From Diploptera punctata (lineage: Eukaryota; Arthropoda; Insecta; Blattodea; Blaberidae), in NCBI GenBank assembly GCA_030220185.1, contig JASPKZ010007247.1:639501-703500 (forward strand): a stretch of DNA of 64,000 nt. Reading direction: 5' to 3'. Shown in pieces: positions 11,102 to 48,904 of this stretch. Under the pieces are notes generated by a model, which had not been told where the DNA came from, ran no database searches, and saw only the letters and a list, made by a program, of their open reading frames with translations. The first letter of the stretch is position 1. The number at the start of each line of letters is the position of its first letter. Position numbers and translations under genes: made by a program.

Positions 11102-11938
11102 AGCTAATACTCGGCGTGCGCTGCTACGCCTAAATAAATTAAAATTAATGTGATTATATGTTTAGTTAAATAAGTGAAAGGAAAAATAATTATGATAAAT
11201 TTATATTTTTAGATACCCCGTGCTGATTACCCGGCGTTGCACGGGAATATACCTATCCCGATCTTCTCGATAAAAAAAGAGCTGAAATACGAAAATTAAT
11301 GTGTTTTGTGCTTAGTTAAAGAAGTAAGAGGAACAATTTATATCGTAATTATTTTTAGATACCCGTGCTGTTTACTCGGCGTTGTCCGGGAATCTACTCA
11401 TCCCGATCTCATTGGCATAAATGAGCTAAAAGATAAAAATTAATGTACTTCTTATGATTAGTTGAATAAGTAAAATGAAAAATAATTATAAATGTATATC
11501 GTAATTATTTTAAGAATCCCCGTTCTGTTATCCGGTGTTGCCCGGGAATCTACTTATCTCGATCGTCTTGGCATAAATGAGCTAAAAGACAAAATTCGTT
11601 ATTGTGAGTTATCCGTAAAAAAATACCCGCCATGTGCTTGTTATGCTTGCACAGCAATCTACGTACTGATCCTGAACTTCTTGGCATCAATGAAAGATAA
11701 AAATGGTTATTGTGAGTTATCCGTAAGAGATAAACATATGCTGTCGCGGACTTTTTTGTACAGCTTTCTGAGATATTCAATTCTGTGTACATTCATTTTG
11801 TGTATTTGTAATGGTTTAGGCAGCGTAAGTCATTTAAGCGTCCAAAGAGCTTCTTTTTTCACGTTTTCCACTACAAAGGATGATTTTTAAGGGTGTAGGA
11901 GTTGAGTATTACAACACTCTTATAGCCTATGTTCATCC
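11099..11938 (+). repeat. Dispersed repeat J, copy 1, 5' part
   Basis: Starts ACTCGGCGTGCGCTGCTACG after the AT run and contains three to four diverged internal units with GATACCCCGTGCTGATTACC, CCCGGGAATCTACTTATCCC and CTTGGCATAAATGAGCT. It breaks off at TTCATCCCGG; the missing 3' end is found at 13249-13370. The intact copy at 31374-32325 shows the expected junction. No credible protein is encoded. Confidence 0.8.
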
Positions 11939-17627: not shown

Positions 17628-17916
17628 GATATGAAAAGAAAAAAGAATGCTTGAGTCGGGATTTGCTATAGCGTTACTGCTATAAAGTAAATATTCTCTT
17701 TAAAAAATTGCTTAACTGTTATGTTAGCCGCGAGATGGCAGTTGGAATAAATTTCCGCTACCTCTTGTGTGAATTGAGAATACTACATGTATAAGAAAAT
17801 TGTATGCTTGTATTGGAATTCTTGGGTAGCTCAGTTGGTTAGAGCGCTAAAGGTACAGACTTTAGAGACTCGAGTTCAAATCCCGACTCAAGCATTCTTT
17901 TTTCTTTTCATATCAT
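17602..17916. mobile_element. Foldback unit with 36 bp inverted ends and a tRNA-like gene
   Basis: Left arm 17626-17661 (ATGATATGAAAAGAAAAAAG ... GAGTCGGGA) is exactly inverted at 17881-17916. The right arm is the 3' end of the tRNA-like sequence at 17821-17894; the left arm keeps only that 3' end. The left arm abuts an (AT)n tract at 17602-17627. The interior contains CGCGAGATGGCAGTTGG, related to CTAGATGGCAGTGAAG inside the foldback at 36725-37090, so the two are likely members of one superfamily. Confidence 0.75.
17821..17894 (+). tRNA. tRNA-like sequence (not a confident functional tRNA)
   Basis: Acceptor CTTGGGT with complementary CTCAAG, D arm TAGCTCAGTTGGTTAGAGC, anticodon stem CTAAAG/CTTTAG with loop GTACAGA, and T arm with GAGTTCAAATCCC fit a cloverleaf, including A and B promoter boxes. 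The anticodon would read ACA (a Cys-type codon UGU), unlike normal Cys-GCA. The T stem has a mismatch and position 1-72 is unpaired. It sits inside a repeated foldback unit, so I regard it as an element-borne tRNA-derived promoter. Confidence 0.5.
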
Positions 17917-18120
17917 ATTTGCCTTCATTGCCAAATGTCAAAAATATATTTATAATATCTACATATAAAAGCGTTACTGCTATAAAGTAAATACTCTCTT
18001 TAAAAGTTTGCTTAACTGTTAAGTTAGCCGCGAGATGGCAGTTGGAATAAATTTCCGCTACCTCGTGTGTGAATTGAGAATACTACATGTATAAGAAAAT
18101 TGTATGCTTGTATTGGAATT

Positions 18121-18194
18121 CTTGGGTAGCTCAGTTGGTTAGAGCGCTAAAGGTACAGACTTTAGAGACTCGAGTTCAAATCCCGACTCAAGCA
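18121..18194 (+). tRNA. tRNA-like sequence, second tandem copy
   Basis: Identical over its length to the copy 300 bp upstream, with the same GTACAGA loop and the same limits for interpretation. Confidence 0.5.
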
Positions 18195-18262
18195 TTCTTT
18201 TTTCTTTTCATATCATATTTGCCTTCATTGCCAAATGTCAAAAATATATTTATAATATCTAT

Positions 18263-18820
18263 ATATATATCTTGCGAAAACAGAAATCTATGTAATATAT
18301 TTCTGTGCTTATATTTACGTCGAAGATTCATAGAATAAAATATGAATCTATAATAGAGTGATACTGAATCTCTGGAATGGATCATATCACCTACTGGATA
18401 ACGTAAGTTACCTTTCTCTCATATGATAAACCCCGACGCTAACTTGCGATGTTTGGTGGAACTAGAATGATCCAGTACTACTCTTATGAAATACTGTAGA
18501 TGCTTCTGCTGTCTAAAGTAATGTAACATGAATATATTCGATGATTTTAAGGGAATTTGTGACCCAATAGATGAAAACCTTGAAAATTAAACCCGACCGG
18601 GAATCGAACAAGAGTAGTCGAATATTCTTTCATTTTTTATTTGTAGATGTTTTAAAGATGTAAAGTTCTATTCTTTAGAATCTTTGGTTGCATATTACAA
18701 AGTGTTTGTTTGTAATTCATTTACCATGAGAATTCTACATAAATTCGCTCATTTAATTTGTTACTGATTTTTTAAATTGGGTATATAAGTATGTTTTCAA
18801 ATGTATTCTATTTATTTTTT
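18263..18820. other. No recognised gene
   Basis: Mostly AT-rich. Around 18590-18610 AACCCGACCGGGAATCGAAC looks like an inverted scrap of a SINE B head. Confidence 0.4.
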
Positions 18821-31373: not shown

Positions 31374-32325
31374 ACTAGGTAATGCCCGGCGTGCGCTGCT
31401 ACGCCTAAATAAATGAAAATTAATGTTTTATGTTTAATTGAATAAGTATAAGGAAAAATAATTATAAATTTATATTTTTTTAGAAACCCCGTGCTGATTA
31501 CCCGGTGTTGCGGGAATCTACTTATCCCGATCTTCTTGACACAAATGAGCTGAAATGCGAAAATGAATATATTTTATATTTAGTTAAATAAGTAAAAAGA
31601 AAAAGAAATATATCGTAATTATTTTTAGATACCCCGTGCTGTTTACCCGGCGTTGTCCGGGAATCTACTCGTCCCGATCTTCTTGGCATAAATGAGCTGA
31701 AAAACGAAAATTAATGTACTTCTTATGATTAGTCGAATAAGTAGAATGAAAAATAATTATAAATTTATATCGTAATTATTTTAAGCTTCCTAGTGCTGAT
31801 TATCCGGTGTTGCCCGAAAATCTACTTATCTCGATCTTCTTGGCATAAATGAGCTAAAAGACAAAATTCGTTAATGTGAGTTAGGCTATCCGTAAAAGAA
31901 TACCCGTCATGTGCTGCTATGCTTGCACAGGAATCTACGTACTTGTCTCGATCTTCTTAGCATAAATGAAAGACAAAAATGGTTATTATGAGTTATCCGT
32001 AAGAGATAAATATATGCTGTCGCCGACTTTTTTGTAGAGCTTTTTGAAATATTCAATTCTGTGTACATTAAATTTGTGTATTTATTATGGTTTAGGCAGC
32101 GTAAGCCATTTAAGCGTCCAAAGAGTTACTTTTTTCACGTTTTCCACTACAAAGGGCGATTTTTAAGGGTGTAGGAGTTGTGTATCACAACTCTCTTATA
32201 GCATATGTTCATCCCGGGAATCTCCTGAACATTTTGCAAAAAGCCCCATCACAATCGGATCAACGGTATGGCCGCGCATAAAGTACAAACAAACAAACAT
32301 TCATTTTTATATATTAGATTAAGTT
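31374..32325 (+). repeat. Dispersed repeat J, copy 2, uninterrupted
   Basis: Starts GCCCGGCGTGCGCTGCTACG and contains serial diverged units (GATACCCCGTGCTG, CCCGGAATCTACT, CTTGGCATAAATGAGCT at about 150 bp spacing). Then come AGCCATTTAAGCGTCCAAAG, TCTCCTGAACATTTTGC and ATCGGATCAACGGTATGGCC, and it ends in a CAAA-rich run and TTTTATATATTAGAT. The reference copy for interpreting 11099-13370, 44455-45783 and 46752-47119. No ORF. Confidence 0.85.
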
Positions 32326-35107: not shown

Positions 35108-36662
35108 CTACTCAAAAAATAGAGGAACACATGTTTGAAACCAAAGCCACAAAATAAATACTATAACAATTTAATTTTTGAGTGTCAGATGTTCTGAGTT
35201 CAAGTATTGTTTAAAATCAGATTGAAGATCTTCTGTTTTTTTTATTAATTTTTCTCTGAATATGTTAGTAAAATTCCTAGAGTTGTTGAAACCAAAGTGA
35301 GTTCGTACTGATTTATTATTTTAAAAACAGGTTTGAAGAATAATCTGTGGTAGGGAATCGTTATTTTTGTGTTCTCTGAAGCTAATACAGAGCAATGAGA
35401 CATCTGAATGAAACATCAGTTGCACGAGCAGTTGCATTGATTGAAGATGGTCGTTCCATTCGCCATGTCTCTAGGATTCTTGATGTTGGCCCTTCCGTCA
35501 TCCATAGGCTGTGGAGGCGATAGAGGAGAGACACGTGGATACAAGAGGAGACCCGGGTAAGATCGTAAGAAGAAGACTACAGACGTACAGGATAGATTTC
35601 TTATCTTATCAGCTTTGCGCAGAAGAAAATCTACAGCCAGAGATCTACAAAATCATTTACGCACAGCAACTGGGACGGTAATTTCTGATCAAACTGTAAG
35701 AAATAGACTGAGAAATGCAAGGTTGAGGTCTAGAATCCCCTTCAAAGCCCCTCGTTTAACACGTCAGCACAAGGAAGCCCGGCAGCGATTTGCTCAGAAT
35801 AATGTCAACTGGCAACTCCGCCAATGGAAGGGTGCTTTTTTCACGGACGAATCAAGATTTCGTCTAACAGGTTCTGATGGTCGTACACGTGTATGGAGAT
35901 ATCCTGGTGAACGTTTTGATCCAGCCACAATTATTGAACGTGACAGATTTGGAGGTGGTTCGGTTATGGTTTGGGCTAGGATTACTATTGAGTCTCGGAC
36001 AGAGCTTGTCGTTGACCCACAGCGCATGAATGCTGATATTTACATTAATGACATTATCCTCCGACATGTTGTACCCTTTGCTTATTGTATGGACCCCTAA
36101 TTTTCTTCTAATGCAAGATAATGCTAGATGTCATACAGCACAGGCTACCAGAGATGTCCTGCAAGAATGTCAAATTCGGGTGATGGACTGGCCTGCATGG
36201 AGTCCGGACCTTAATCCGATCGAGCATATGTGGGATAAGCTGAAAAAACTTGTTCATAAGCGTCCTGCTGTACCTCAGAACCTTGAAGAACTTTCACATG
36301 CACTCACCGAGGAATGGGAGAGAATCTCACAAGTTTCTGTAACAAGGCTTCTGCAAAGCATTCCTCGTAGGTGTAATGCGGTCATTCAGGCTCACGGAAG
36401 CCACACTAAGTACTGAGTGTTGAAATAACCATGAAAACATTGATTTCAAAAATTGTAAATCTCAAATTTCCAATTTGTTTTCTGCTACAAATGATAACAT
36501 GTTCGTTTTGCTAATACTATACAAGAAAATATTTTTTGAATGTCTATTCTAATTTTACATAAATCTTCAATTTATAATTACAAAATATCAAACATTATAT
36601 TGTTTCAATATTTATTCTCGTGTTTTGGTTAAAACATGTGTTCCTCTAATTTTTTTTAGTAG
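35108..36662 (+). mobile_element. Tc1-family DNA transposon with TIRs
   Basis: The left end CTACTCAAAAAATAGAGG..ACACATGTTT is inverted at the right as AAAACATGTG..CCTCTAATTTTTTTTAGTAG; TA flanks both ends (35106-35107 and 36663-36664), in an AT microsatellite. Length 1555 bp, close to the family norm of 1.5-1.7 kb. It holds one transposase gene in the plus direction. Confidence 0.93.
35395..36416 (+). pseudogene. Tc1 transposase, DD34E, broken by a stop and two frameshifts
   Basis: ATG at 35395 opens MRHLNETSVARAVALIEDGR and a helix-turn-helix ending IHRLWRR, then TAG at 35521-35523. A second frame (35615-36100) holds the second DNA-binding half (SDQTVRNRLRNARLRSR) and catalytic FTDESRF, RVWRYPGER, GGGSVMVW. 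A third (36030-36416) holds MQDNARCHTA and AWSPDLNPIEHMWDKL, ending GSHTKY. The second D and the E are separated by 34 residues, the Tc1 signature. Frame changes fall between 35523 and 35615 and near 36090. The catalytic residues survive, so inactivation is recent. Confidence 0.92.
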
Positions 36663-39610: not shown

Positions 39611-40451
39611 TCACGGGAATGGCGGTGTTATTACCCTTGATGGCTCATTCACTCCTACAGTTAACTCCAATGTCTCTCTTCCCGGCCTAATTCTACCTTC
39701 ATGATTGAGAGATAGGACTTTTGATACAATATTCAGATCTTCCTGAGGCGAAGCAAATCCGGCAAAGTCTCCAGCAACTCCAGATTGGTAAAGAAGGTTC
39801 TGCAGTTGACTGTTTACATTGGAAGGACTAGAGTTCTGAAACGAAGTCTGTTGGGATAATGGGATGAATGGTCTGTCCTGTTGTTGAAATAAATTGTTGG
39901 TTTGTGCAGATGGCTGAAAGAAGCTGCTGCTGATGGATGGTTGCACACTAAAACTATTTGATGGTTGTTGAAAACTGTTTGAAGACTGTTGTTGGAAACC
40001 ACTTGAAGGTTGTTGAAAACTGTTTGAAGACTGTTGTTGGAAACCACTTGAAGGTTGTTGAAAACTGTTTGATGGTTGTTGTTGGAAAGTATTTGTTGAT
40101 TGTGTTTGGAAATTATTTGAAGATGGTTGTTGAAAATTGTTAGATGGTTGTTGTTGGAAAGCATTTGTTGATTGTGTTTGGAAACTATTAGGTGATTGGA
40201 AAGTGTTTGTTGGTTGTTGGAAAGTGTTTGCTGTTTGTTGGAAAGTATTTGATGGTTGTTGAAAATTGTTTTGTGACTGAAATTGAAAATCCGAGTTCTG
40301 TTGGAAACCTGCAACAGCAGTTCCAGTCTCTTGTCTTAGAGGTCTTTGATGCTGCAGTGGAAGAGAGAGTGGCGGCGGCGGTGGTGGTTGTTCAACTTGA
40401 AGGAACTGATCTTGTTGCACTTGTTGTTGTTGCTGCTGTTGTTGTTGAAAC
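39611..40451 (-). CDS. Gln/Ser-rich secreted protein, last coding exon
   Basis: The minus-strand exon starts at 40451 after GCGTCACAG (acceptor AG 40453-40452). A single G completes the AGG codon of the preceding exon, then FQQQQQQQQQ. It encodes a polyQ run, a Pro block (QPPPPPPLSLP), many copies of a SNSFQQPSSGFQQQ-like repeat, and a less repetitive end with LQNLLYQSGVAGDFAGF, EDLNIVSKVLSLNHEGR and TPPFP before TGA at 39613-39611. About 280 residues. The final 70 residues are the best candidate for a conserved domain. Frames on the other strand are shadows of the CAA repeats. Confidence 0.8.
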
Positions 40452-41658
40452 CTGTGACGCAAATAATTTTTCTGTGTTCAATTATTCTACAGTAGTCGAC
40501 ATTTCATAAATTATATTTTCTGGATATTTCAAAACAAATAATCGAAATACATACTTATAGAGACGAACACTTTTTAAGTTCAAGTCCAAAACTTTCGGGG
40601 CAAAAATATGTAAGAATATGTAGTAATGAAATTACAATAATAAAGAAATATGATCAGACCAACTGGAATGAAATTTAGAAAAAATAATTCAAGGACTACT
40701 TTATTTGAATTACTAAATAATTCACTGAAATATAGGTGCACATATTTACCAGAATTTATGACTAGTTAATTGGATTTGAAGAATAATTGAAACCAGAATT
40801 TTAGGAAGAATTTTATTTAATAAAGTTTACATAAGTTAAAAAGTACAAAGATGAGGAAGAACGATGAAAAGAACTATCTGATTCGCAAACGAATCCAATG
40901 ACAATATTATTAGAAATAATAGAAGAATGTTTTCAGCCAGTTATCTAAATGTTAATTAAATGGGTATTTTTTAAATTATTAGTTAGGCCATATAATTCTA
41001 TATCATTTTATAACAAAGAAAAGCGTTAGATTTCAGAAGACATAACATATTAAATTAGTCAAATAGAGCAATAATTCAGAAGAAATTTGGGGTGATGAAA
41101 TGTATTGCATACTATATAGTTCAATAAAAGTTTACTATAAATAATCATTGTTTCATTGTAAAATTAAATTATGAAAATAATTCAATAAGATGTCAATAAT
41201 CAGTTACAGGATAGTAAAACAATCAAATAAGCAAAACAAATTAAAATAATATAAAATAAGAGAAAGCAATCCATATATAAAGATATAAAATAGTTTTTTA
41301 TAAATAAAGATGTAAAGTGTTTTACTTATAAATAAATATGTAAAATGTTTACCCATCAATTAAATTGTAAAAAAATCTTATGCGTATGCTGAATTTTAAA
41401 ATCATAACAACAGATAACTTAAAAACTAGAGAACAGAAAATATTCTATACAGATCTGGGATGAATAATTTTAAAAGTTGTCAGGTTAGTGAAATCGGAAA
41501 ATTGAGATGCCAAACGTGGATGTTAATCTAGACAAGAACAATTAGTTGAGAAGAAAACCTTAAGAACATAATACTATTATCAAAAGTGTGAAGCCAGAAA
41601 GCTACCAATTCAGAACTCCCGGATCATCAAAATAACAACTAAAATAAAAATTACAGAC
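40452..41658 (-). other. Intron of the Gln-rich gene
   Basis: Donor AAG|GTCTGT at 41658 and acceptor TCACAG at 40452 (minus strand) give a 1207 bp GT-AG intron in phase 2. A second GT three bases further (TCT|GTAATT) would break the frame into the next exon, which supports the first. The intron is AT-rich with no obvious element inside. Confidence 0.75.
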
Positions 41659-42986
41659 CTTAATCTCTGTTGCTCTTCTTCAAACAACTTTTGCTGCCTC
41701 AATCTAATTTGTTCTTGCTGAAGAGTCTGCTGTTGTTGTTTTAAGAGTTCCTGTTGTTGAAATTGTTGTTGCCGTTGTTGCTGCTGCTGCAATTGTAGTA
41801 ATTGTTCCTGAAGAAGTCTTGTCTTTCGTTCCAATTCCTGTTCTCGTGTTAATTGAGGTTGTATAGGCTGGAAGCGATGTTGTTGGGCAGGTACTTGAAA
41901 AGATGTAAATTGTGCTTGTTGTTGATTGAATCCCAGAGATGAATGTTGTTGCTGTAATCTCTGCTGCTGTTGATTTATAACTGGATGTGGACGTCGTATC
42001 AAAGGAACTACGCTTTTGGGATTTCCTTTTTCGTCCTGTTCTAATGTAAAAGCAGCTACTAAAGGAGCTTGAAATATTGATACATCATGATCATCTAAAT
42101 CCAATTTTACAGATCCTGATGTTGATGTTGCCGAAGATTTATTATCAAAAGTAGGAATATTATTATTATTATTCACGTCAGTTGTTTTCTTATCTGACGA
42201 AGATAATGTACTAGTAGTTAGTTGTTTTGAATCCACTTCATCCCCCTTCTTGAAAGATTTCTCATTTACATCTTGAGAATTTGAATGTATGATATTTGAT
42301 TGAATATCTATAGACTGTGATTCTGGTTGATTCTGGCTTATGTCTTCCAATTTTATTTCTGGTACATTTTCATTTCGATAGAATATCGCAGCTTCTTCAG
42401 GTTTCTCAACAAAAGTGGACGATTCATCTGGTTGTTGTGATTCTGTTTCACTGTTGCTCTTTCCGTCGACGGGGAGTTCATAATCAAACACACTAACGTC
42501 AGCCTGTTCTTGAACAGGGCCATCCATAACAATCATATCTATACTTTCATTGCTAGTCTCATGGTGTTGTTCTTGATGATTTTCTTCAGGTGTTTCAGGT
42601 TGTTCAGGCAAATCATCTTGGATTTTAGTATATTCAAAATTTTGTTTAAAAGAGTTTTCGTAGTTGCCTAGAAGATCTTCAAGGTCTCTCTTGATATTTG
42701 ATTCTTGAACTTCATCAACTGACTGGTTATCAGTGGGAGTTTGTTCCGGTGGTGGAACAGTTTCTCCTACTGCCTTCCTTTGAGCTTCCAGTTCTAGCTG
42801 TGTGAGAGCTCGTAGCAAAGCTCTTCTCAATACAGGATCCAGTTTCAGCGGCGGTGGAGTTGAACTATGAGAGTTAGCATTATTCCATATAAGTGAAGGC
42901 GATGTTGCTACGTTGTCTGAACTTGCTGACGATTGCCTCGCTACACAGAAGTTGGCCAGAAGGCAGAATACAAGCGCTGTGTAGAT
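41659..42986 (-). CDS. Gln/Ser-rich secreted protein, large upstream exon
   Basis: Begins after ATTTCTCAG at 42987 with IYTALVFCLLANFCVARQ, the hydrophobic core and cleavage region of a signal peptide; the start codon probably lies in a short upstream exon, as is common for insect secreted proteins. The ATG at 43040 in the same frame is a weaker alternative. Then follow LDPVLRRALLRALTQLELEA, acidic Ser/Glu/Asp-rich sequence (about residues 80-300), ESVVPLIRRPHPV-like basic SVVPLIRRPHPVI, and a Gln-rich coiled stretch ending EEEQQRLR. About 442 residues. Low complexity suggests an extracellular, cuticle, silk-like or matrix protein; function not assigned. Confidence 0.78.
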
Positions 42987-43040
42987 CTGAGAAATAATAA
43001 TTATTGTTTTAGAACATTTAAAGATTAATATTGTAAGCAT

Positions 43041-43252
43041 TTCAAAAAAAACTATTATGATAATAAATTACATATACATACCAAATAACTGATTTATTTA
43101 CAAACATATCTCTTTGTCTATTTTATATATTTATTCTGCATTTCATTTAAAAATGGAGTCTATTTATTTAGTGTACATTTATTTATTTAATGACGGTCCT
43201 AGCCATAATATAATTAAGAGCACTTAAGATGCCAGAAAAATGTAAACGCTCA

Positions 43253-44454: not shown

Positions 44455-45783
44455 TAGCTAACACCCGGCGTGCACTGCTACACCTAAATAAATGATAATG
44501 TGTTTTTGCATTTAGCTGAATAAGTGAAAGGAAAATAAATATAAATGTAGGCCCTATATCGTTATTATTTTTAGATACCACGTGCTGATTACCCGCCGGG
44601 AATCTACGCATCCCGATGTACTTGGCATAAATGAACTGAAAGACAAAATTCATTATTTTTGAGTATCCATAAAAGAATACCCGCCGTGCGCTGCTATGCT
44701 TGCCCGGGAATCTCCGATTGAGGGTCTTTCTACTTTTCAGCGGTTGCCCTTTTACCAGCCGGCTGCTGGCCCTTCACATCCACATGTGTCAATCACAGAG
44801 GTAGATGATCAACAGCCAGTGTAGGGGTGACATGTGGTTAGCATGTCGACTCCCCCAGCCGTTATAGCTGGTTCCTCAACCTGGAGCCGCTACTTATTGT
44901 AGCTACCCAATTGCTTCACGATGCTGGGTGGGCACCGGTCCCATACTGGCCGAAATACCATGAGAAAATTTCTTCCCCCATGGAGACTCGAACCAGCGCA
45001 AGTCCCGTAGCTCTGCGCCAAGGCTTCCTACCTTAACCACTCTGCTACGGCGCGGGACTTTGCCCGGGAATCTACTTTTCCTGATCTACTTGGCATCAAT
45101 AAAAGACAAAAATGGATATTGTGAGTTATCCTTAAAAGATAAACAATGCTGTCGCGGACTTTTCTTTAGAGTTTTTTTTATATATTCAATTATGTAAAAT
45201 AATGTTGTGTGTTTGTTATGGTTTAGGCAGCGTAAGCCATTTAAGCATAAATAACTGACAATTTTTTCACGTTTTTTTTCACTACAGACGGTGATTTTTA
45301 AGGGTGAAGGGCTTGAGCATTGAAACTCTCTTATAACCTATAACTTTCCCGGGGACATCCTGAACATTTAGCAAAAAGTCCTATGACATTCGAATGAATG
45401 GCAAGGCAGAACATGCTTGCCCGGGAATCTACTTATCCCGATCTCCTTGGCATCAATTGTGTGTTATCCGTAAAAGATAAACATATTATGCTGTCACGGA
45501 CTTTTTTCTAGAGTTTTTTGAGATATTCAATTCTGTGTAAATTAATTTTGTGTATTTGTTATAGTTTAGGTAGCGTAAGCCATTTAAGGGTAAAAAAGGG
45601 ACTTTTCACGTTTTTCACTACAAAAGGCTGTTTTTTTTAAGTGTAGGAGTTGAATATATTAGCTCTCTTACAGCCTATGTTCTTCCCGGGAATCTCCTGA
45701 ACATTTTGCAAAAAAAAATCACAATCGGATTAACGGTATGGCCGCGCATAAAGTACGAACAAACAAACATTTTTATATATTGG
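44455..45783 (+). repeat. Dispersed repeat J, copy 3, inside H
   Basis: ACACCCGGCGTGCACTGCTA to TTTTTATATATTGGAT. The internal units are reiterated more than in copy 2. Its own sequence is split by a minus-strand SINE at 44714-45059. Confidence 0.82.
44714..45059 (-). mobile_element. tRNA-derived SINE, D family, 14 bp TSD
   Basis: TTGCCCGGGAATCT at 44700-44713 and 45060-45073 flanks it exactly. Minus-strand head GTCCCGCGCCGTAGCAGAGT with GCTGGTTCGAGTCTCC, then TTTCTCATGGTATTTCGGCC, a CCACCCAGCATCGTG block and an end CAGCAGCCGGCTGG. 346 bp. The flank motif is itself repeated in J, so the duplication is strong but not unique evidence. Confidence 0.85.
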
Positions 45784-46751: not shown

Positions 46752-47119
46752 TTATCTTATATATAAAAATTGTTTGTTTGTTTGTATATTTGTTTGTTCG
46801 TACTTTATGCGCGGCCATACCGTTGATCCGATTGTGATGGGGTTTTTTGCAAAATGTTCAGGAGATTCCCGGGATGAACATGAGTTTCGATACTCAACTC
46901 GTACATCCTTAAAAATCGCCCTTTGTAGTGGAAAACGTGAAAAAAGTAGCTCTTTGGACGCTTAAATGGCTTACGCTGCCTAAACCATAAGAAATACACA
47001 AAATTAATGTACACAGAATTGAATATCTCAAAAAGCTCTACAAAAAAGTCCGCGACAGCATATGTTTATTTCTTACGGATAACTCACAAAAACCATTTTT
47101 GTCTTTCATTGATACCAAG
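46752..47119 (-). repeat. Dispersed repeat J, copy 4, 3' part
   Basis: The inverse of J's end: TTGTTTGTTTGTTTG, GCGCGGCCATACCGTTGATC, TGTTCAGGAGATTCCCGGG, TTTGGACGCTTAAATGGCTT, ending at TTGATACCAAGA where the next SINE begins. Confidence 0.8.
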
Positions 47120-47120
47120 A

Positions 47121-47260
47121 GTCTCGCGCCATAGTCGAGTGGTTAAGGCAAGAAGTCTTGGCGCAGAACTACGGGACTTACGCTGGTTCGAGTCTCTGCG
47201 GGGGAAGAATTTTTCTCATGGAATGTCGGCCAGTATGGGTCAGAAATGAAATCTAGCTGG
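47121..47260 (+). mobile_element. SINE D, 3' truncated
   Basis: TCTCGCGCCATAGTCGAGTG, GGCGCAGAACTACGGGACTT and GCTGGTTCGAGTCTC match the D head; it stops at CCAGTATGGG. A G-run follows at 47262-47270. Confidence 0.7.
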
Positions 47261-47473
47261 GGGGGGGGGAGGAAACTGTTTTGACTCACTCTCATCAATT
47301 TATCTTTTTTTTCACTCTAATATAATTGTTATATGACAGTTCTTAACTTATCTGCAAAGGAGAGTAAAATTCTAATGTTCATGACTATGTGACGTCATCA
47401 TTCATACTTCTTGAGCCACAACAGAAGGCTGTAAGAGGCTTTCTTGCGAATTTATTTAATAATATCTAATTAT

Positions 47474-47685
47474 AGTGGAATGCAGGCTTTCACGGCCGGT
47501 AATCATGGTAGTAAAAGATTCCGGGCTATGTGGCCGTGCGAATGCATTCGCAGTCGAGTCTACGACAGGGAAACAACAGCTTCTAGCGCTCGCCACTGAA
47601 GATGCCCTCCGCAGTTGAGGGAGAAACGTCTGGAAGAAACGCCAGTTATAGACCACGGCCACATAGCCCGGAATCTTTTACTACC
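47474..47685 (+). mobile_element. 212 bp hammerhead-bearing insertion with 13 bp TSD
   Basis: AATATCTAATTAT occurs at 47461-47473 and 47686-47698, flanking the insert. Inside, arms 47507-47538 and 47654-47685 (GGTAGTAAAAGATTCCGG and its inverse) are 32 bp perfect inverted repeats. Between them the plus strand has CTGAAGATG, CCCTC-loop-GAGGG, A, GAAAC (47596-47626), then CTGG-AAGAAACG-CCAG and TTATA. This gives hammerhead core CUGANGA and GAAA, a five-pair stem II, a four-pair stem III and helix I from the long arms. No ORF. It resembles Penelope-derived or retrozyme-like non-autonomous retroelements. Confidence 0.75.
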
Positions 47686-47814
47686 AATATCTAATTATGT
47701 CATAATTTCTGAATTTTATGGTAAAAAAGTAACATTTTTATCGTCCGCCCATGACATGAGAATTGAACGTTCGGGCAGGACAACGTCTGCCGGGTACGCT
47801 ATTATATTATAAGA

Positions 47815-48904
47815 TAAAAATGTTAGCTTCGCATATCATCATCCTACCATGCCTACTTGAAAAAATCAACCTATTTTTTAATACATTACCATAATAATAT
47901 TATAGTTTCTGATATTTCCGAATATAAGATGTCTAAATAGAACACGACTGGATTATAATTACTGTATATTATAACATAAAAAACGTTAGCTTTCGCACTT
48001 GCATCATCCAACCATGCATACTTGAGAAAATATATCAAACTAATTGTTAATACATGTCTACCGCTGTGGTCTCGAGGTGGTCTCTGCTTTATCACGCAGC
48101 GAGTCCGGATTCGATCCCCGGTCGGGGCAAGTTTCCTGGGTGATATTTTTTTCGGGGTTTTCCTCACCTGTAAAACAAATGTCAGGGAACTTTAAGGCCC
48201 AAACGGTCCCCGAACATCATCTGGCCGTCATTAACATATTCATTAAATTTAGGATTAAAACCTTTCCTGGCGCATCATTACCATAACCATCTATTACATA
48301 TCATCGGGTCAGCGTAATTCCGTCTTCCAGGCGCCCCAACCTCAGATGTTGACTACAATAACGTCATGCCAGGAGAGAATACCAGAATGTCGAAATGACA
48401 ACTATGTGGCATTGAATAAAAATAATTAATACATTATCATAACAATATATATTCTAGTGTCTGATATTCCCGAATAGAATAAATCATGACTGGATTATAT
48501 ATTATAAGATAAAATGTTAGCTTCGCACTTGCATCATCCTACCATGCCTACTTGAGAAAAGAAAACAAATGTTTAATAATCAATTGATTTGGTATTTACT
48601 TGATGAAAATCCATGATGTTTATTTATTAAATAAAACTATAAAAGTTGTATATAATTTTCATAAATATTTATTTTAATCAACATTCGTAACAGCTATTTC
48701 GATACACTGTAACATCTTCGTCTTAAGATATTTTTATTGAATAATTTTTAACACATTAACATAATATTCTGGTTTCTCATATTATAGAATATAAGAAGTC
48801 AGAATAAAACATGGATAGATTATATATTATAAGATAAAATGTTAGCTTCGCACTTGCATCATCCTACCATGCCTACTTGAGAAAAAATCAACTTAATTTT
48901 TAAC
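47815..48904 (-). repeat. Repeat K array, about 160 bp units, with a SINE inside
   Basis: GTTAGCTTCGCAC or GTTAGCTTTCGCAC recurs at about 47822, 47988, 48516 and 48841; after removing the 379 bp SINE plus duplication, spacings are near 150-166 bp or twice that. Each unit has CATCATCCTACCATGCCTAC, ATACATTATCATAA and AATAAAACATG-type blocks. Orientation relative to H is uncertain. Confidence 0.75.
48056..48425 (+). mobile_element. SINE B2 (alternative tail) with 9 bp TSD
   Basis: TTAATACAT at 48047-48055 and 48426-48434 flanks the insert. The head (TCTACCGCTGTGGTCTCGAG, GGATTCGATCCCCGG, GGGGTTTTCCTCACC) is that of SINE B. After CATCATCTGGCCGTCATTAA the tail changes to the CAGGCGCCCCAACCTCAGAT ... 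CCAGGAGAGAATACCAGAAT sequence, which is also found without a head at 5550-5762 and 63708-63885. Confidence 0.9.

Follow-up and report, generated by a model that had tools for sequence, protein, structure and literature searches.

The locus examined here raises the question of what kind of mobile sequence a 212-bp insert with a hammerhead-like motif, enclosed by two identical copies of AATATCTAATTAT, may be, and how it came to be inserted. The insert lies at positions 47474-47685 of a 64-kb stretch of Diploptera punctata DNA, hereafter 'the window' (letters read over 47101-48060). An earlier, sequence-only reading had reported a 212-bp insertion with a 13-bp target duplication, 32-bp perfect inner arms, and the motifs CUGAAGA, CCCUC/GAGGG and GAAAC. 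All of these are present, with matching coordinates and letters (Table 1). We conclude that the insert is very probably a leader-only, minimal insertion of a Penelope-like element (PLE) of the Penelope/Poseidon type.

The anatomy of the insert can be read from its two strands. On the plus strand, the start codon lies within the hammerhead core (CUGAAG-AUG), and the frame stays open to the end of the insert; only the ORF start of the PLE polyprotein is carried by this copy. On the minus strand, the left arm translates as RPHSPESFTTMITGRESLHST, where the last codons of the same ORF start are found again (RPHSPESFTT), followed by 33 bp more, the 'tail' (MITGRESLHST), a term that we use as parts of PMC3846280 and PMC11167929 define it. 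Since the left arm repeats codons of the ORF start and continues for a further 33 bp, the insert joins, head to head, two pieces of a single sequence: the inverted end, which is long and adjoins the left target duplication, and the direct end, which is shorter. The inverted arms (47506-47538 and 47654-47686) are 33 nt long and 100% complementary; only 32 bp of them belong to the insert, because the last A is that of the right target copy. Positions shared between copies are given below as q coordinates of a 182-nt reference (q is the window position minus 47536), in which the ATG is at q66 and the predicted ribozyme cut falls after q94.

A Blast comparison of the insert with the window gave no second copy within the 64 kb. 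Other features were observed in the window. Directly upstream of the insert is a repeat (46783-47210), in which a stretch near 47128-47200 resembles, by eye, the A and B boxes of a tRNA; Blast matched parts of the repeat to 11679-11909, 31955-32303 and 45457-45770, and it is perhaps a SINE family. Two overlapping open frames at 35561-36416 resemble, by eye, a Tc1/mariner transposase broken by a frame change. On the minus strand, two open frames rich in glutamine (288 and 485 aa) lie within 39611-43067; the 485-aa frame has a possible signal peptide near its start (by eye), and the two are a candidate host gene. Finally, 17670-18267 is a tandem pair of 298-bp units, 98% identical, each with an ARAGORN tRNA-Cys call.

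Table 1. Coordinates of the features of the insert in the window
Feature	Position	Strand	Basis or remark
Left target-site duplication, AATATCTAATTAT	47461-47473		13 bp; sequence
Inverted arm, 65 bp	47474-47538	minus	corresponds to q118-182 of the reference; in other copies, follows the ORF start without a break
PLE tail, 33 bp, between the two putative reverse-transcription start sites	47474-47506	minus	copy comparison
16-bp palindrome at the head-to-head junction, TGCGAATGCATTCGCA	47537-47552		sequence
Direct arm: leader of the PLE; begins at the predicted transcription start (A, q10), ends at the short end (q149/150)	47546-47685	plus	
PLE-type minimal hammerhead-like block	47593-47633	plus	sequence, motif scan, conservation; activity putative
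Stem I, CCA/UGG	47593-47595/47631-47633	plus	PLE-form assignment
CUGAAGA	47596-47602	plus	sequence
PLE ORF start, 28 codons, MPSAVEGETSGRNASYRPRPHSPESFTT	47602-47685	plus	frame runs on into the L123 and L124 polyproteins; aligned with P0012
Stem II, CCCUC/GAGGG	47605-47609/47617-47621	plus	sequence
GAAAC	47623-47627	plus	sequence
Predicted cut	after C 47630	plus	predicted; after nt 29 of the ORF
Right target-site duplication, AATATCTAATTAT	47686-47698		13 bp; 100% identical to the left copy

Copies in the host genome and their two ends

A search of the host assembly (3.12 Gb, 10,165 contigs), which the sequence-only reading had proposed, yielded further copies with shared ends and target duplications. 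With the insert as query, 129 matches were obtained (90 candidates, the best 40 of which were scored), and with the 182-nt reference 79 (54 candidates, best 40 scored); as only these best-scoring candidates were taken (40/90 and 40/54), the copy counts are lower bounds, biased to close copies. Once five haplotig duplicates had been set aside, the 48 loci examined, window included, corresponded to 43 distinct insertions. Insert length ranged from 156 to 656 bp, with a median of 282 (L054 is entered 45 bp too long). In 36 of the 43 insertions (37 with L054), the target duplication measured 9 bp or more; these duplications had a mode of 13 to 14 bp and an AT content of 82%.

One long and one short end were assigned automatically to 38/43 insertions. 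At L054, the automatic call was mis-set by a weak extra match; read separately, this copy is also long/short, with a 14-bp duplication, which brings the count to 39. In the four others (L053, L055, L082, L112), the two ends were not assignable automatically. The long end corresponds to q180-182 (ORF +115 to +117), and the short end to q142-156, mostly q150/151 (ORF about +85). No long/long or short/short pair was found among the 39 insertions with both ends assigned; if ends were chosen independently and equally, the probability of 39 mixed pairs would be 2e-12.

This pattern bears on two other explanations. Inverted arms and target duplications might be those of a MITE-like DNA transposon, with the arms as its terminal inverted repeats and a target duplication of 13 bp. 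The ends, however, are not mirror images: the 32-33-bp tail was present on one end only in the 39 insertions with both ends assigned, inner truncations differ between copies, and the arms encode the N-terminus of a PLE protein. The MITE reading is refuted by this asymmetric and variable anatomy, and we leave it practically no probability. It is also extremely unlikely that the insert is what remains, as a decayed solo pseudo-LTR (pLTR), of a full-length PLE whose pLTRs recombined with each other. Solo pLTRs of Adineta vaga are ascribed to recombination or deletion in parts of PMC3846280; here, however, the 13-bp duplication is perfect and encloses two ends that fall where other insertions also end, with or without ORF, and the point at which the inverted arm is truncated is not the same from one copy to the next.

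Among the leader-only PLE insertions, which is how we read these copies, some were composite, with pieces running from q8 to q77 (L068, L070, L087, L118) or from the 5' end to q154 (L065), or with a piece of the ORF (L077). L087 and L118 are apparent haplotigs of one insertion, with the same 13-bp duplication reversed; their difference in length (656 versus 932 bp) comes from unequal numbers of pLTRs and of 70-bp q8-77 units, and the short array perhaps grew allelically after insertion. A conserved 18-base word was also searched for, and was found at 2 loci in viral contigs and 38 in genome contigs. Two of these loci were read, Blast of the insert against all 40 gave nothing longer than 25 nt, and the loci were thus taken as chance.

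Full-length relatives and the encoded protein

The link to a coding element came through L077, in which a 64-aa ORF fragment is captured within the insertion. Pfam gave only sub-threshold matches of this fragment to unrelated families, and PDB no match; it was identified through its match to the locus L123. The genome search with the fragment gave 7648 first-look candidates; 150 of them were scored, none with an E above 3.3e-29.

L123 has one short and one long end, flanked by a 12-bp target duplication. It holds an 847-aa stop-to-stop frame, which joins the PLE ORF immediately past its start codon: the head-to-head joint has taken the place of the first codon, and the frame continues ...MITGRESLHSTIKRLYGEENYLRI... 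The frame of the ATG at 47602, completed by the inverted arm, is the N-terminus of this 847-aa frame. The protein matches RVT_1 at 2e-14 (Pfam). A GIY-YIG-type endonuclease motif, GVYR...SYIG (GVYRLPCSCGRSYIG), was seen by eye and from aligned relatives; Pfam GIY-YIG (PF01541) gave no match in the L123 protein, and is annotated in a few of the listed homologues (P0072, P0073, P0090, P0109).

A protein search with residues 340-825 returned 2076 homologues at E up to 0.001, the best 120 of which were listed. One of them, P0012 from Anolis carolinensis, aligns from residue 2 (465/825 identical, 56%), and the alignment covers GETSG, the residues encoded by the GAAACGTC core. ETS was found ahead of the YGE motif in 5 of the 9 homologues kept by a pattern that missed P0012, so GETS-type starts appear to be common, not general. 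The Anolis PLE proteins P0012, P0016 and P0108 stand beside insect ones among the listed relatives, with 60-66% identity in the matched part; this could reflect horizontal transfer or uneven sampling. In viral contigs, a PLE alignment pattern gave 55 pattern matches and no relative.

A second, sister family (family 2) is represented by L124, a tandem array with units about 2.58 kb apart. In this array (C31:131100-134000), the stop codon of the upstream ORF overlaps the ORF start of the next unit inside the hammerhead block; the tandem units thus have overlapping ORFs.

Judged by its sequence, the window family can be placed among the PLEs of the Penelope/Poseidon clade: a single ORF with a reverse transcriptase and the by-eye GIY-YIG motif is found in the same family, together with the other traits expected of the clade, namely a pLTR, often with an inverted partner, a 30-40-bp tail at one end (32-33 bp here), and short target-site duplications at AT-rich sites. 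The expected PLE ribozyme core is also in the expected place (CUGANGA, stem II, GAAA, a predicted cut shortly inside the ORF, and a very short stem III). The sequence-only reading had proposed a 'retrozyme-like or minimal Penelope-derived' element; the second half of this proposal holds, given the copies with shared ends and target duplications and the full-length relatives, while the first does not, as argued below.

The hammerhead-like block and the 5' end of the RNA

Both strands of the 64 kb were scanned for CTGANGA, a stem II of at least 5 bp, GAAA, NUH and a stem I of at least 3 bp. A single site was found; in 40 simulated sequences of the same length (first-order Markov), the mean was 0.1 site per sequence. 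The sequence-only reading had paired CUGG with CCAG (starting at 47630 and 47642) as stem III. This pairing was rejected: it takes up the base next to the predicted cut (C 47630), and in L124, of the second family, its last pair has disappeared with no compensating change; in the PLE form, stem III is the palindromic ACGU alone. The comparison with Rfam hammerhead models, which that reading had also proposed, gave no hammerhead match for the insert (E up to 1 and up to 10) or for one sister-family copy (E up to 10); judged by the model threshold which that reading had set, the hammerhead fails. Energy folding of monomer and dimer did not return the hammerhead, and the minimum-free-energy fold of the isolated segment differs from it (-18.2 versus -9.6 kcal/mol).

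Conservation was then considered. Between the window family and the sister-family copy L124, the core block (q49-97) is identical at 47/49 positions, compared to 25/40 and 38/53 for its flanks (q9-48 and q98-150) and 31/32 for the tail. In the older copies L150, L152 and L082, the block is identical at 45/49, 45/49 and 48/49 positions and the q98-150 flank at 33/53, 45/53 and 43/53, so that the contrast is smaller for L152 and L082. The block lies partly upstream of the ATG and, in L123, past the ORF stop, and coding alone cannot therefore explain conservation there. The stems are nearly invariant among the copies and families compared, in which no compensatory change was demonstrable. At q86, an A is found in 73/75 arms of distinct insertions, and a T in 2. 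This A breaks the pair with q68, which family 2 (C86) can form; the base pair concerned is G-A in the window family in place of the usual closing pair of stem II, G10.1-C11.1 in hammerhead numbering. From its sequence, the motif is of a kind already known from PLEs, and self-cleavage is possible. For PLE hammerheads, PMC11167929 and PMC7229834 cite Cervera and De la Pena 2014.

The RNA start was examined in the parental elements. Among 16 parental loci fetched by position, 14 had a pLTR, which makes 15/17 when L123 is added. A TATA-like motif was found 31 or 32 bp upstream of the A of TTCA(+1)TTC in 14 of these 15 pLTRs; it is a weak variant, CATGAA, in L126 and L139, and L123 has TATGAA, which was not counted. 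The 43 distinct insertions contain 96 arms that are 16 nt or longer, 57 of which begin at q1-11 (67/110 with the haplotig duplicates). Many arms thus run back to a predicted transcription start below the TATA box. Against this explanation, 39/96 arms stop inside the leader, short of the 5' end. The base at q8, before CATTC, is a T in 15/15 parental pLTRs, and a G in 41/41 mini-insert arms of distinct insertions that reach q8. This extra G is suggestive of a cap-copied or otherwise non-templated base; it could also come from an unsampled parent. The arms often carry TGC or longer fold-back pieces (the latter in L053, L054 and the window copy).

These arm starts weigh on the retrozyme explanation, by which a non-autonomous element would be transcribed in tandem, cut by its hammerhead into circles and then reverse-transcribed. 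The size, type I-like hammerhead core and target duplication of the insert do resemble those of metazoan retrozymes (150-450 bp according to parts of PMC7229834), and head-to-tail pLTR or 70-bp units are seen in L065, L068, L087 and L118. The joints of these tandems, however, lie at q150-154/q9 or q77/q8, away from the cut, and the sequence comes from an ORF-bearing PLE, of which it comprises the leader and 39 initial codons. Moreover, none of the 96 arms starts at q92-101, around the predicted cut, the nearest being at q91 and q102. This agrees with the report that the ribozyme of the Anolis element PAc requires the protein, and that ribozyme mutants leave insertion in vitro unaffected (PMC11167929), and indicates that cut RNA was not the template of the copies examined. 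A retrozyme is, on this evidence, very unlikely.

Insertion mechanism and comparison with known systems

If the insert is a PLE leader, its two ends would mark where reverse transcription started. The flank of the long end was compared with the RNA past q182 (ATTAA), and matched it at A in 36/41, T in 27/41, T in 20/41, A in 27/41 and A in 19/41 cases. Relative to a background of 0.41, positions 1, 2 and 4 stand out, and positions 3 and 5 are not significant. For the short end, none of 40 rows matched the RNA at its second base (G); about five of these rows were misregistered by the automatic end call. The likeness of the flank at the long end and the unmatched second base at the short end suggest that the two ends were primed differently. 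The start sites near +85 and +117 agree with those of the Anolis PLE, for which PMC11167929 reports that reverse transcription begins 111-118 nt inside the ORF and that the tail separates two start sites; in that work, each strand of the target is cut and extended, with a preference for AT-rich sites. Counting against the present explanation, the start site in vitro did not differ between strands in the same study.

A scheme can be proposed from these observations. The PLE mRNA would start at the pLTR promoter, and the PLE protein would make staggered cuts, 13 bp apart, in the two strands of an AT-rich site. Each cut end would then serve as primer on a leader RNA, with reverse transcription beginning within the ORF start, so that the target is twin-primed, one end at about +117 (long, tailed) and the other at about +85 (short). 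For the window copy, the short-end cDNA would have run to the 5' end of the RNA and folded back slightly, and the long-end cDNA would have stopped after 65 nt. The two cDNAs would be joined head to head, and gap filling would produce the target duplication. A monomeric mRNA would give a leader-only insert, and a read-through transcript with a second pLTR a full-length copy; template jumps would account for the composite copies (L065, L068, L070, L077, L087, L118).

More generally, we suggest, giving the idea not quite an even chance, that each PLE insertion is a two-RNA, two-site event. One strand would be primed at +117 through a few complementary target bases (AUUA); priming of the other, at +85, would not involve such bases, and each cDNA could run off at the cap. 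Leader-only insertion would be the default of monomeric mRNA, full-length insertion would need read-through with a second start site, and the template would be made without any involvement of the hammerhead.

Elements of this class were already known. The copies bear on the insertion mode of PLEs, on the reason for their optional tail and on the role of the hammerhead, and the leader-only family records both start sites, the predicted 5' end of the RNA and the target cut in one short insert. The strict one-long-one-short pattern and leader-only families were not met in the open-licence literature searched, and no priority is claimed.

Metazoan non-LTR retrozymes, as described in parts of PMC7229834, share with the present element a size of a few hundred base pairs, a type I core and, when present, target duplications of more than 4 bp. 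They differ from it in that the insert is a piece of a coding PLE, with no circle-derived copies among those examined. The Penelope elements of Adineta vaga are closer: the sections of PMC3846280 concerned describe pLTRs, head-to-head inverted pLTRs, short target duplications, solo pLTRs, a 31-bp tail that is optional on one inverted pLTR, and palindromes at inverted junctions. In contrast to the present family, those of A. vaga are, in the same sections, mostly ORF-bearing, and several of their solo pLTRs are without target duplications and ascribed to recombination or deletion.

The likeness is most detailed with the Anolis element PAc (PMC11167929). In both, the hammerhead lies across the ORF start, with the cut 26 nt past the start codon in PAc and predicted after nt 29 here. 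Reverse transcription starts 111-118 nt into the ORF in PAc, compared to +117 for the long end here; the tail lies between two start sites, and targets are AT-rich. The 56% identity to the L123 protein, over 825 residues, of P0012, an Anolis protein and not necessarily that of PAc itself, is a further likeness. Unlike in PAc, leader-only insertions are catalogued here, and each of the 39 assigned end pairs has one long and one short end. The copies thus provide a genome counterpart of the in vitro results of PMC11167929, namely internal initiation, two start sites and priming on both strands; they add the one-long-one-short pattern, and argue against ribozyme-cut RNA as the usual template.
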